DNA of 64,000 bases, taken from Rubrivivax sp. (GTDB lineage: Bacteria > Pseudomonadota > Gammaproteobacteria > Burkholderiales > Burkholderiaceae_C). Shown here piece by piece: positions 58,984 to 64,000 of the stretch. The stretch is from positions 1 to 64,000 of the forward strand of contig JALHPF010000029.1 of assembly GCA_022842595.1 (NCBI GenBank), given 5' to 3'. Position numbers and translations under genes: made by a program. Numbering within the stretch: position 1 is the first letter of the stretch; every line of letters starts with the position of its first letter. The notes below the pieces were generated by a model. That model did no database searches. It was given only the letters and a program-made list of their open reading frames with translations, and had not been told where the DNA came from.

Positions 58984-59056
58984 GCCCTGACCCCGGCCGC
59001 GCCGGGGCCGCGCCGGGGCCGGCACCGGGGCTGCTAAGGTCGCCCCGGTGAGAGAC

Positions 59057-60490
59057 ATGGAGCCCGACTTCTGGCGCAACCTGCGCGACGAACTGTCCGC
59101 CAGCCGCGCCTGGATCGACCGTGCCGTGGTGCTGGGCTATGCGGTGCTGACCGGGCTGGTGGTGGTGTGCTTCACGCTGCTGTCGGAACTGGCCACGCAT
59201 GCCTTCGAACTGCTGCGCGGCACCAACGCCTGGACACCCTACGCCATGCTGTTGTGGACACCGCTGCTGACGGTGGCCGTGCTCTGGATCACCCGCCGCT
59301 ACGTGCCCGCGGCCCTGGGCTCGGGCATCCCGCAGGTGGTGCGCGCGCTCGACGACGACCTGCCACCTGCGCAGCAGCAATGGCTGGTGTCGCTGCGCGT
59401 GGCACTCAGCAAGATCGGCCTGGTCTCGGGCGGCTTGCTGGCCGGCCTGTCGATCGGCCGTGAAGGCCCCACGGTCCAGGTGGGTGCCGGGGTGATGGTG
59501 CATGCGCGGCGATGGCTGTCGCCAGCCTCGGGCATCGACGCGCACGACCTCATGGTCGCCGGTGCAGCCGCCGGCATCGCCGCAGCCTTCAACACGCCGC
59601 TGGGCGGCATCATCTTCGCGCTGGAGCAGCTGTCGCGGCGGCGCAGCATGTCGCACAGCGCATTGATCATCGTCAGCATCGTCATCGCCGGCCTGGTCGC
59701 CGTGTCGGTGTTCGGCAACCTCACCTATTTCGGCCAGCTGCGTGTGCCGGCGCTGGACTGGTCGTTGCTCGGCCCGGGCCTGCTGGTGGCGCTGGTGGCC
59801 GGGCTGGCAGGTGGCCTGTTCACGCGCCTGATCGTGGCTTCGGTGCGCGGTACACCCGACGTCTTCAGCCATTGGCGCCGCACCTACCCGCTGCGCTTTG
59901 CCGCCGGCTGCGCGCTGGGCGTGGCCGTGATCGGCCTGGTCACCAGCGGCGCCACGGCCGGTGCCGGCTACGCGCCCACGCGCGCCCTGCTCGAAGGCAC
60001 GGCCACCACCGGCGGCGAAGCCGGCCTGCTGCCCGGCATCTACACACTACTGAAGTTCTGCGCCACCTGGCTGTCGGCGTGGACGGGTGTGCCTGCCGGC
60101 GTCTTCGCGCCATCGCTGTCGATCGGTGCGGGCATCGGCAGCGACATCGCCCGCCTCACCGGCCTGAACCAGGAGATGGCCATTCCCCTGATCGCGCTGG
60201 GGATGGTGGGTTTCCTGTCGGCCACCACCCAGGGCCCGATCACTGCGTTCATCATCGTCATGGAAATGGTCGCAGGCCAGGCCATGGTGCTGAGCCTGAT
60301 GGCCTGCGCGCTGCTGGCCAGCGGCGTGGCCCGGCTGATCTCGCGGCCGATGTATGGGGAACTCGCTGCCCTGCTCGTGCTCCCACCTTCCCCGAAGGAG
60401 GAGACCGAGCCATGCCCGAAGCTCACCGAAACCGAGCCGGAACCGCCGCCCGGCCCGGCGCCTGCGTCAGCGTCGTCATCCCCGCGCTGA
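59057..60490 (+). CDS. ClC family chloride channel/transporter
   Basis: This 477-aa ClC protein has the selectivity motifs GSGIPQ (residues 88-93), GREGP (134-138, gating Glu136) and GVFAP, and a Tyr in RPMYGEL. The internal proton glutamate of ClC-ec1 (E203) aligns to Gln191, at exactly the 55-residue spacing from the gating Glu. This may alter Cl-/H+ coupling. The Pro/Glu-rich tail (PKEETEPCPKLTETEPEPPPGP) is encoded where the gene overlaps the next gene by 79 bases. GTG 59048 is an alternative start. Confidence 0.92.
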   Translation: MEPDFWRNLRDELSASRAWIDRAVVLGYAVLTGLVVVCFTLLSELATHAFELLRGTNAWTPYAMLLWTPLLTVAVLWITRRYVPAALGSGIPQVVRALDDDLPPAQQQWLVSLRVALSKIGLVSGGLLAGLSIGREGPTVQVGAGVMVHARRWLSPASGIDAHDLMVAGAAAGIAAAFNTPLGGIIFALEQLSRRRSMSHSALIIVSIVIAGLVAVSVFGNLTYFGQLRVPALDWSLLGPGLLVALVAGLAGGLFTRLIVASVRGTPDVFSHWRRTYPLRFAAGCALGVAVIGLVTSGATAGAGYAPTRALLEGTATTGGEAGLLPGIYTLLKFCATWLSAWTGVPAGVFAPSLSIGAGIGSDIARLTGLNQEMAIPLIALGMVGFLSATTQGPITAFIIVMEMVAGQAMVLSLMACALLASGVARLISRPMYGELAALLVLPPSPKEETEPCPKLTETEPEPPPGPAPASASSSPR

Positions 60491-61917
60491 ACGAGGCCCG
60501 GCGCATTGCCAGTGTCGTGGCCTATGCGCTGGCCGATCCGGCCACCGCCGAGGTCATCGTCATCGACGACAGTTCCATCGACGACACCGCAGCCTTGGCC
60601 CGCGGTGCCGGTGCGCGCGTCATCACCAGCACCATGCTGGGCAAGGGCGCCTCGATGCACGACGGCGCGCTGGCCGCCAGCCATGACCTGGTGGCCTACC
60701 TGGACGGCGACCTGGCCGGCCTGCGTCCCGGCATCATCAGCGACCTGTGCCGCCCGCTGCGCGAGGGCCAGGCCGACTTCGTCAAGGCCCGCTTCGGCCG
60801 TGGCGGCGGACGCGTCACCGAGCTCACGGCCAAGCCGATGCTCAAGGTCTTCTTCCCGGAGCTGGCGCACCTCGGCCAGCCGCTGGGCGGCATCGTCGCG
60901 GCGCGTCGAGCGCTGTTGCTGCAGCTGCCGTTCGAGGACGGCTACGGTGTCGACATCGGCCTGCTCGTCGACGCCCATCGCGCCGGCGCGCGCGTCGTCG
61001 AAGTCGACATCGGCTCGCTCGAGCACGACAGCCAGCCGCTGCTGGACCTGACGCTGATGGCCAACGAGGTGGCCCGCGTGCTTTATTCGCGCGCCCGTGC
61101 CGCCGGCCGGCTGAACGTCGACCAGATCGTGGCGATGTACGAGAGCCAGCGCCAGGCCACGGCCGAACTCGACTTCATCCTCACCCGCCGCCGCGGCCGC
61201 CAGCGCCTTCTGCTTCTGGACATGGACGGCACCCTCACGACCCAGCGCTTTGCCGTCGAAATGGCTCGCGCCACCGGCCAGGAACAGGCGCTGGCCGCGC
61301 TGCTGGACAGCCCCACCGATGACGCGGCGGCGCGCAGCGAAAGCATCGCCAGCCTCTTCCGCTTCGTCCACAAGCAGCAGTTCGAACGCGTGGCGCGGGC
61401 CGCGCCCATCCGGCCCGGGGTCATCGAGTTCATCAACCGCATGCGCCGCGCCGGCTTCATGGTGGGCGTGCTCAGCGACAGCTATTTCGTCGCCGCCGAC
61501 ATCGTGCGTCGCCGTGTCTTCGCCGACTTTGCACTGGCCCATACGCTGCACTTCGACGGCGACGTCTGCACCGGCCAGGTTCGTGTCAACGCCGCCTTCA
61601 TGCCGCTGGTGCCGGGCCAGGGCCCGGCCATCTGCAAGAGCCATGTGCTGGCGCGCTTCAAGGCCGACACCGCCGGCTCGCCACTCATCAGCTGCTGGGC
61701 GGTGGGTGACAATCTGAACGACCTGGGCCTGCTGCGTGCGGCCGACCACGCCTTCGCGATCGACCCGAAGTCGCCGCAGCTGGCCGAGGTACCGGGCCTG
61801 CGCGTCATTGGGCACTTCGAGGAATTGCTGCCGCTGGTGCCGCTGGCGCGCATTTCGGCGGCGCTGGCGAATGTGGAAACCCCGACCGAAGCGCTGCAGG
61901 ATGCACCCAGTGCATGA
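60412..61917 (+). CDS. Fusion: glucosyl-3-phosphoglycerate synthase (GpgS-like, GT81) and HAD phosphatase
   Basis: This 501-aa protein has two domains. Residues 1 to about 245 are a GT-A glycosyltransferase: VSVVIPALNEARRIASV, the metal motif YLDGDLAG (about residue 98), and GGGRVTELTAKPMLK with QPLGGIVAARR and EDGYGVDIGLLVD, which closely match mycobacterial GpgS. Residues about 265 to 485 are a HAD-IB phosphatase: motif I LLDMDGTLTT, Ser in GVLSDSYF, Lys in KSHVLARF, and motif IV GDNLNDLGLL. The pair should make glucosylglycerate, a compatible solute. A strong Shine-Dalgarno (AAGGAGGAG) precedes ATG 60412, inside the ClC gene. The phosphatase role is inferred. Confidence 0.85.
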   Translation: MPEAHRNRAGTAARPGACVSVVIPALNEARRIASVVAYALADPATAEVIVIDDSSIDDTAALARGAGARVITSTMLGKGASMHDGALAASHDLVAYLDGDLAGLRPGIISDLCRPLREGQADFVKARFGRGGGRVTELTAKPMLKVFFPELAHLGQPLGGIVAARRALLLQLPFEDGYGVDIGLLVDAHRAGARVVEVDIGSLEHDSQPLLDLTLMANEVARVLYSRARAAGRLNVDQIVAMYESQRQATAELDFILTRRRGRQRLLLLDMDGTLTTQRFAVEMARATGQEQALAALLDSPTDDAAARSESIASLFRFVHKQQFERVARAAPIRPGVIEFINRMRRAGFMVGVLSDSYFVAADIVRRRVFADFALAHTLHFDGDVCTGQVRVNAAFMPLVPGQGPAICKSHVLARFKADTAGSPLISCWAVGDNLNDLGLLRAADHAFAIDPKSPQLAEVPGLRVIGHFEELLPLVPLARISAALANVETPTEALQDAPSA

Positions 61918-61933
61918 GCACCGACGCTGACCG

Positions 61934-63526
61934 ATGACGGCCGCCGACTGGGCCGTCATCACCGTCTACCTGGCGGCCACCTTGGGCCTGAGCGCCTGGC
62001 TGGCGCGGCGCCAGGGCAGCCCCGAGGACTACTACGTCGGCGGCCGCGACCTCCCGGCCTGGGCGCTGGCCCTGTCGATCCTGGCCACGCAGTCCTCGGC
62101 CAATTCCTTTCTCGGCATTCCGGCCTACGTGGCCCTGGTGCCTGGCGGCGGCCTGACCTGGCTGCAGTACGAACTGGTGCTGCCGCTGGCGATGATCGTC
62201 GTCATGCTCGTCTTCGTGCCGGTGCTGCGCGGGCTGGAACTGGTCAGCGTCTACGAATACCTGGAACGGCGCTTCGACCGGCCGACCCGGCTGCTGCTGA
62301 GCGCGGTGTTCCAGCTGTCGCGCGGCCTGGCAGCGGGGGTGGCGGTGTATGCCGCGGCGGTGGTGGTGCAGGTCTGCACCGGGCTGCCGCTGGCCTGGTG
62401 CATCGTCGGCGTGGGCGGCATGACGGTGCTCTACGACACGATGGGCGGCATGCGCGCCGTGGTCTGGACCGACGTGATGCAGATGGCCGTGCTGTTGCTC
62501 GGCATCGTCGTCTGCGGCGTCTACGCCTGGCAGATCGCCGGTGGTGGCGCGGCCATCCTCGCCAGCCTGGCGCCGGAACGCCTGGCCGCGGTCGAGCTCG
62601 CCCATGGCCTGGGCGACGGCGCACGGGCGCCGGTCTGGGGCTTCGTGGTCGGCGGGCTGGTGCTGTACGTGGCGTACTACGGGGTCGACCAGGGCCAGGC
62701 CCAGCGCAGCCTGGCCGCGCGCAACGTGCCGGCGGCACAGCAGGCGCTGTGGATGAACGGCCTGGCGCGGTTCCCGCTGACGCTGCTGTACTGCGGCCTG
62801 GGCCTGGCCATCGGTGCGGTGTACGCCGGCAGCGAGGCCTTGCGCGCGGCCGTGCCGGCCGGGCGGCTGGACTACCTGGTGCCGCGCTTCATCGAGCTCT
62901 ACCTGCCCGCGGGCGTGCGCGGGCTGCTGGTGGCGGCCATCCTCGCCGCGGCGATGTCCAGCCTGGATTCGCTGCTCAACAGCCTGTCGGCGGCGACGCT
63001 GCGCGACTTCGTCGAGCCGCGGCTGGGCGCGCAGGCGCCGGCCTCCAGGCGGCTGCTGGCCTCGCGCCTGGTGACGGCCGGCTGGGGTGTGCTCATCGTC
63101 GGCTTCGGGCTGCTGGTGGGCGACCTGGCGAGCAGCGTCGTGGAAGGCATCAACCGCATCGGTGCGCTGTTCTATGGCCCGCTGCTCGCGGCCTTTGGCT
63201 GCGGCATCCTGGACCGGCGGGCGCGCGGGCCGGGTGTGCTGGCGGGCGTGGTGGCCGGGCTCGGGCTGAATGCCGTGCTTGCCTGGGGGCTGGGGCCGCA
63301 ACTGTTCTGGATGTGGTGGAACCTGAGCGGGCTGCTGGCGGCCGTGTTCGTCACCTGCATCGTTAGCCGCCTGCTGGCGCCGCCGCGCCACGAACAGCTG
63401 CAAGGCACCACGCTGACCCTGGCCGCGCTGCGCGCCGGCTGGGCGGCCCAGCGCCGCACCTTCCACGCCCTGTTGGCCGCCAGCGCGGTGATGACCGCCG
63501 CTGCGCTGGCACTGGGTACCCGCTGA
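61934..63526 (+). CDS. Sodium:solute symporter family protein
   Basis: This 530-aa membrane transporter of the SSS family has about 13 hydrophobic segments. The signature is visible in YYVGGRDLPAWALALSILATQSSANSFLGIPAYV, ITVLYDTMGGMRAVVWTDVMQM (read as VLYDTMGGMRAVVWTDVMQ), and VDQGQAQRSLAARN. A Na+-site Ser/Ala pattern appears in LLVAAILAAAMSSLDSLLNSLSAA. The substrate may be a sugar, polyol or organic acid. It starts 16 bases after the GT/HAD fusion. Confidence 0.9.
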   Translation: MTAADWAVITVYLAATLGLSAWLARRQGSPEDYYVGGRDLPAWALALSILATQSSANSFLGIPAYVALVPGGGLTWLQYELVLPLAMIVVMLVFVPVLRGLELVSVYEYLERRFDRPTRLLLSAVFQLSRGLAAGVAVYAAAVVVQVCTGLPLAWCIVGVGGMTVLYDTMGGMRAVVWTDVMQMAVLLLGIVVCGVYAWQIAGGGAAILASLAPERLAAVELAHGLGDGARAPVWGFVVGGLVLYVAYYGVDQGQAQRSLAARNVPAAQQALWMNGLARFPLTLLYCGLGLAIGAVYAGSEALRAAVPAGRLDYLVPRFIELYLPAGVRGLLVAAILAAAMSSLDSLLNSLSAATLRDFVEPRLGAQAPASRRLLASRLVTAGWGVLIVGFGLLVGDLASSVVEGINRIGALFYGPLLAAFGCGILDRRARGPGVLAGVVAGLGLNAVLAWGLGPQLFWMWWNLSGLLAAVFVTCIVSRLLAPPRHEQLQGTTLTLAALRAGWAAQRRTFHALLAASAVMTAAALALGTR

Positions 63527-63556: not shown

Positions 63557-64000
63557 ATGTCCCTGCGCCAGTTCATTTCCGCCCGCAGCCTGCTGCGTAC
63601 ATTGAGCACGCTGAAGAACAGCATCGTCTACAGCTGGGACGAGGCCGCGCGCATGCTCGGCCTGCAGCAAGACCTGTACACGCACCCGCTGCACCGCGAA
63701 CTGGAGCAGCCGGTGCGCGTGGTGCTGATCGGCGCCGGCCACCGCGGCAGCATCTATGCCGACTTCGCGAAGAAGAGCCCGCGCGAGATGCGCCTGGTCG
63801 GCGTGGCCGACCCCAACCCGGCAAGGCGCAATCGCACGGCCGCGACCCATGGCATCCCGCCCGAGCGCTGCCTCACCGACTGGAAGGGCGTGTTCGACGG
63901 CCCCGACGGCGCCATTCCGAAGTGGGCCGACGCCGTGATCATCGCCACGCCCGACCGCGTGCACACCGCGCCCTGCCTGCGCGCGCTGCAGGCCGGCTAC
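63557..64000 (+). CDS. Gfo/Idh/MocA family oxidoreductase, 3' truncated by the window edge
   Basis: The frame from ATG 63557 is open to the window end (148 codons). After a short helical lead (MSLRQFISARSLLRTLSTLKNSIVYSWDEAARMLG) the Rossmann fold begins with RVVLIGAGHRGSIYADFAKKSPREMRLVGVADPNPARR and continues through WADAVIIATPDRVHTAPCLRALQAGY. These are the NAD(P)-binding parts of sugar or inositol dehydrogenases. It follows the symporter by 30 bases, so the transporter may supply its substrate. It is absent from the ORF track because it has no stop in the window. Confidence 0.88.
   Translation, partial: MSLRQFISARSLLRTLSTLKNSIVYSWDEAARMLGLQQDLYTHPLHRELEQPVRVVLIGAGHRGSIYADFAKKSPREMRLVGVADPNPARRNRTAATHGIPPERCLTDWKGVFDGPDGAIPKWADAVIIATPDRVHTAPCLRALQAGY

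Follow-up and report, generated by a model that had tools for sequence, protein, structure and literature searches.

A GT81–HAD-IB fusion protein in Rubrivivax sp. is a candidate bifunctional hexosyl-3-phosphoglycerate synthase/phosphatase

In a contig of Rubrivivax sp. we identified a protein that is composed of a GT81 glycosyltransferase of the GpgS/MpgS type in its N-terminal half and a HAD-IB domain of the SerB fold in its C-terminal half, with the catalytic residues of both halves complete. The window, that is, the whole 64,000-nucleotide stretch of DNA that was analysed, encodes both intact catalytic domains in one ORF. The same fusion occurs across phyla, and genes connected with ion transport or osmotic stress recur beside it. 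Judging from its sequence, the protein is probably a bifunctional hexosyl-3-phosphoglycerate synthase/phosphatase that yields a compatible solute, most likely glucosylglycerate. We infer the donor, the acceptor, the product, the order of steps and the physiological role as follows. The GT81 half would glycosylate the 2-OH of D-3-phosphoglycerate with a hexose, most probably glucose donated by an NDP-glucose, and the HAD-IB half would remove the phosphate from the resulting hexosyl-3-phosphoglycerate. One protein would then deliver a hexosylglycerate, most likely glucosylglycerate, which would stay in the cell and act as an anionic compatible solute when osmotic or ionic conditions change.

The fusion gene, its parts and its neighbours in the window are:
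59048 to 60490, forward strand: gene for a ClC-type chloride channel/antiporter, probable first gene of the operon (Pfam Voltage_CLC, 4.6e-76; a ClC neighbour is found elsewhere too)
60395 to 60403, forward strand: Shine-Dalgarno-like AAGGAGGAG for the fusion gene (direct reading of the sequence)
60412 to 61917, forward strand: GT81–HAD-IB fusion gene (501 amino acids; profile matches, predicted model)
60466 to 61140, forward strand: GT81 half, residues 19–243 (GpgS profile match; Foldseek match to GpgS, 1.7e-19)
61198 to 61836, forward strand: HAD-IB half, residues 263–475, with a helical cap between motifs I and II (profile matches, model)
61219 to 61221, forward strand: codon of D270, the predicted HAD nucleophile (DMDGT motif, conserved in 88 of 91 fused sequences)
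61934 to 63526, forward strand: gene for an SSF sodium:solute symporter (Pfam SSF, 4.5e-37; TIGR00813, 4.4e-60)
63557 to 64000, forward strand: gene for a Gfo/Idh/MocA-type oxidoreductase, which leaves the window and ends at contig position 64948

Translation of positions 60412–61917 on the forward strand runs for 501 residues without an internal stop. The start of the gene overlaps the upstream ClC ORF (59048–60490) by 79 nt. This overlap looks real, because AAGGAGGAG is spaced 8 nt from the ATG and no other in-frame ATG, GTG or TTG is present upstream of the homology start. Downstream, the SSF symporter gene starts 16 nt past the fusion stop, and an SSF gene directly follows the fusion in five related loci as well. 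A Gfo/Idh/MocA-type gene 66% identical to that of the window was also found near the fusion in a Bacteroidota locus (L085, 78–1356). We infer that the ClC, fusion, SSF and Gfo/Idh/MocA-type genes form one operon. The ClC protein retains the gating Glu (GREGP), but Gln stands at the site equivalent to Glu203, the inner proton Glu of E. coli ClcA, and the protein may therefore depart from standard Cl/H exchange. An assembly join was ruled out as the origin of the fusion, given single-ORF full-length homologues in unrelated genomes, and so was chance, given homologues at 92 other loci, nearly all of them one full-length ORF.

The best NCBIfam match of the N-terminal half was glucosyl-3-phosphoglycerate synthase PRK13915 (E 5.6e-56, residues 12–246), and its nearest PDB sequences by phmmer were mycobacterial GpgS (5e-33) and Rubrobacter MpgS (1.3e-28). 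The PRK13915 equivalog score of 189.9 bits falls below the curated cut-off of 262, hence the protein counts as a GpgS relative without being annotated as GpgS by this model; the cut-off was not reached in any of 15 fusion genomes. We then mapped ligand residues of M. tuberculosis GpgS onto the fusion protein. The residues described for nucleotide, sugar and acceptor carboxylate, namely Glu54, Lys114, Asp134/136, Val186/Thr187, Tyr229, His258 and Met269 (PMC2581804), correspond to E28, K78, D98/D100, V135/T136, Y178, H205 and M216. The residues that mark GT81 membership are therefore in place: the DxD motif (D98/D100), the lysine (K78) and the acceptor-carboxylate pair (V135/T136). Across 91 fused sequences the ligand residues are nearly invariant except for H205, in place of which 44 of the 45 Bacteroidota-side sequences and three other fused sequences have Asn. 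Y178 is replaced by Phe in three sequences, and four Bacteroidota sequences deviate at position 98, 136 or 158.

Other parts of the pocket depart from GpgS. The fusion protein reads PLGGI where M. tuberculosis GpgS reads PLSGE, carries Asp181 in place of Glu232 (Asp192 in MgS), and has Ser for Asn260. The acceptor-site residues Arg134 and Thr136 are retained. A loop of ~11 residues ahead of GGGRVTEL, through which GpgS has been proposed to reach the phosphate of its acceptor, is missing throughout the family, which weakens the case for a 3-phosphoglycerate acceptor.

The C-terminal half scored above the cut-off of the Pfam HAD model (50.2 bits vs 27), and below those of SerB TIGR00338 (1.7e-12, 47.4 bits vs 144) and HAD-IB TIGR01488 (36.5 vs 45); phmmer against the PDB aligned it with M. 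avium SerB (5e-11). The MPGP model matched over 30 residues only (E 0.0055), and the HAD-IB models matched far better. The HAD motifs are DMDGT (D270, D272), S355, K409 and GDNLND (D433), and five helices between motifs I and II form a helical C1 cap in the predicted model. Arg279 occupies the position of the serine-binding Glu of SerB, and phosphoserine is thus an unlikely substrate; a second SerB pocket residue, an Arg, aligns with S311, a variable position. That the HAD half is the cell's own SerB was ruled out by its sub-cut-off score, by Arg279 and by another SerB-like gene (L002).

The set D270, D272, S/T355, K409 and D433 is complete in 77 of the 91 fused sequences. HAD catalytic residues are missing in the other 14, some of which are fragments, on several separate branches, while the GT residues remain. 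This loss shows a phosphatase step that would be dispensable, or supplied otherwise, in some relatives. Loci with HAD catalytic residues gone and the GT half intact are L019, L020, L023, L030, L053, L056, L115 and L117; Aquabacterium humicola (G340) carries two fusion copies (L019 and L020), with a decayed HAD half in both. Many relatives have C-x2-H-x2(3)-C-K just before the motif III Lys (residues 402–409 of the window's protein), possibly a metal or redox site. Only the last Cys (C408) is retained in the fusion protein itself.

An AlphaFold2 model built on 63 fused homologues (mean pLDDT 89.7, pTM 0.85) was compared with the PDB by Foldseek, which returned GpgS (1.7e-19), MpgS and then phosphoserine phosphatase (7.9e-13); among the 50 matches listed, none spanned both halves. 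MpgS superposed more tightly on the model than GpgS (rmsd 1.9–2.2 vs 2.6–3.1), at a lower rank. Collectively, these results bear out much of a sequence-only reading of the window. The GT–HAD fusion ORF that it had placed at 60412–61917 is one 501-residue ORF with homologues at 92 other loci, and the linked gene does encode a ClC protein (Pfam, 4.6e-76). The N-terminal half, proposed as GpgS-like, is closest to GpgS by sequence and predicted fold, domain searches having led to GpgS (E 5.6e-56) and not to an unrelated family; the C-terminal half, credited with all four SerB-like HAD motifs, shows the SerB fold, with its catalytic residues all in place.

A scan of genome contigs returned at least 455 related stretches. 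The best 80 of these came from Burkholderiales, Methylomonas, Acidobacteriota, Verrucomicrobiota, Planctomycetota, Bacteroidota and Thermodesulfobacteriota, with one contig binned as an archaeon, and nearly all were one ORF. Among close relatives the fusion is sporadic (10 of 200 sampled genomes of the order, 7 of 201 of the family). In Pseudarcicella hirudinis (L103:7980–9430) the GT and HAD parts are two adjacent in-frame ORFs with a stop in the linker and intact motifs, reflecting either two genes or a recent mutation. Formosimonas limnophila (L081:8001–8852) has only the end of the GT half and the HAD half, and the DNA upstream is unrelated. Standalone GpgS in the same class is of a different type, with longer loops, and fused and standalone sequences separate in a tree, with a support of only 88/57 and long branches meeting, which is too little to establish a single origin of the fusion. 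A plasmid collection gave only partial matches of the actinobacterial GpgS type, and we found no dedicated GT81–HAD-IB model in Pfam or NCBIfam.

To survey the gene neighbourhood, we dereplicated 62 loci at 80% identity and scanned 108 adjacent genes, with 104 genes more than 4 kb from the fusion in the same 62 loci as controls. With gene calls that are heuristic and loci that are not independent, the adjacent genes included 10 for Usp, seven for ClC, five for MarR, and three each for Na/H exchangers, CitMHS, MscS and SSF; the CitMHS neighbour at L077, when tested, was NhaD-like. Among the controls, ClC, Usp, MscS, Na/H exchanger and CitMHS each numbered fewer than two. The antiporter family PF07399 appeared twice there, and at those loci it is also present no more than 6 kb from the fusion. 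Four of the 11 ClC genes in 15 fusion genomes are located within about 1 kb of the fusion, compared with ~0.01 estimated by chance. In Sphaerotilaceae the ClC gene precedes the fusion and shares its strand; in G061 and G105 it follows on the other strand, and in Methylomonas and Bacteroidota it is likewise found downstream. That the arrangements differ between groups argues for repeated retention of the ClC–fusion pair. A salt or osmotic role had been suggested from the linked ClC gene, and it gains weight from the genes for ClC, MscS, Usp and NhaD-like or NHE-type antiporters that flank the fusion in several phyla.

Single loci offered further associations. At L085, a glycerate 2-kinase gene is directly upstream of the fusion and a ClC gene directly downstream; glycerate kinase genes are frequent companions of glucosylglycerate phosphorylase and GpgS (PMC7178133). 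At L061, sucrose-phosphate synthase-like and phosphatase-like genes directly follow the fusion. In Chitinophagaceae-type Bacteroidota (L084, L086, L095–L099, L106–L114) a Usp gene comes directly after the fusion, and a gene for an RRM protein is often upstream. No glucosylglycerate-degrading enzyme was found in the Rubrivivax genome, which speaks against the proposed pathway. A GH13_18 gene was rejected as a glucosylglycerate phosphorylase on account of its NLDLYQ loop, as in sucrose phosphorylases, the absence of (T/S)ETN and its sucrose-use-like neighbours. The sucrose phosphorylase gene with the NLDLYQ loop, at L124:2880–4427 (contig C65 of G000), stands beside fructokinase-like, porin-like and regulator-like genes, apparently a sucrose-use cluster in the same genome.

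Glucose is the favoured donor because of the GpgS scores. A GDP-mannose donor, which would give mannosylglycerate by the same two-step chemistry, is unlikely in our view, even though Rubrobacter xylanophilus MpgS is itself a GT81 enzyme with the tighter superposition, and PLGG and Asp181 of the fusion protein are like PLGGE and Asp192 of MgS. Ser210 in the PLSGE of GpgS has been proposed as a discriminator against mannose (PMC2581804), but PLGGE is found in M. hassiacum GpgS too, hence the glycine is indecisive, and the sequence scores fall on the GpgS side. It also seems improbable that the GT half uses another acceptor, such as D-glycerate or a small acid, with the HAD half acting on a different phosphate or having a role of its own. 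The missing acceptor-site loop and the decay of the HAD half in several lineages with an intact GT half are consistent with such an acceptor, as is MgS, whose similar pocket takes unphosphorylated glycerate (PMC2581804). Nevertheless, most members, from several phyla, have an intact HAD half, pointing to a phosphorylated intermediate, and Arg134 and Thr136 are kept.

The possibility we rate lowest, and as very improbable, is that glucosylglycerate, instead of being a free solute, primes the assembly of a polysaccharide or lipid in the manner of mycobacterial methylglucose lipopolysaccharide. Priming is a known role of GpgS in mycobacteria (PMC2581804, PMC2674218), but no glycan-assembly gene recurs beside the fusion; the genes that do recur there encode ion transporters, MscS and Usp. 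The earlier proposal of glucosylglycerate synthesis by one polypeptide stands as regards the GpgS-like and HAD halves, whereas PLGGI, Asp181 and the missing loop make its donor and acceptor less certain.

Mycobacterial GpgS (GT81; PDB 4ddz, 7pdo) shares the GT fold and the nucleotide, sugar and carboxylate residues with the fusion protein, and differs in being standalone with a separate phosphatase, in two longer loops, in PLSGE/PLGGE vs PLGGI and in Glu232 vs Asp181. The mycobacterial phosphatase GpgP is a histidine phosphatase, and MpgP-type phosphatases are HADs of another subclass. Rubrobacter xylanophilus MpgS (GT81; PDB 3f1y) resembles the GT half in fold and sequence family but is unfused and uses a mannose donor. 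SerB has the same HAD core, helical cap and catalytic residues as the HAD half, which is set apart by an identity of about 20% (structural match), Arg279 in place of Glu and sub-cut-off scores. MgsD combines another GT family with an MpgP-type phosphatase. The HAD half of the fusion protein is not an MpgP-type domain. Nevertheless, MgsD of Dehalococcoides mccartyi, a bifunctional mannosylglycerate synthase/phosphatase (PMC8490865), is likewise one protein that joins a 3-phosphoglycerate-based synthase to a phosphatase and makes a compatible solute. The fusion GgpPS, a glucosylglycerol-phosphate phosphatase/synthase (PMC10873239), also unites synthase and phosphatase in one protein, here for a glucosyl solute made by heterotrophic bacteria. 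GgpPS differs in that its phosphatase domain comes first, its acceptor is glycerol 3-phosphate and its GT belongs to another family. The sequence-only reading had called the fused SerB-like phosphatase a different solution; the HAD-IB type stands, but the claim was somewhat overstated, since MpgP is also a HAD, and MgsD and GgpPS were known. We found no description of a GT81–HAD-IB fusion in the open-licence literature searched.

More broadly, we put forward, tentatively and with somewhat more doubt than conviction, that proteins with this fusion are one-protein hexosylglycerate synthases and make up a family that is widespread and so far undescribed, part of a recurrent osmotic module with ClC and Na/H antiporters, with repeated loss of the phosphatase. 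Such a family might serve many non-halophilic bacteria, with another phosphatase perhaps taking over where the HAD half is lost. If so, glucosylglycerate (or mannosylglycerate) would be made by many bacteria in which present models do not predict it, since these proteins score too low for the curated GpgS threshold and bear a phosphatase that was not expected. The fusion would also be one more case of synthase and phosphatase united in a single protein for a glycosyl solute, assembled from parts unlike those of MgsD and GgpPS, and its gene may offer a one-gene production route. The recurrent link to ClC, Na/H antiporter and MscS genes provides a concrete hypothesis of a role in osmotic or ionic stress.
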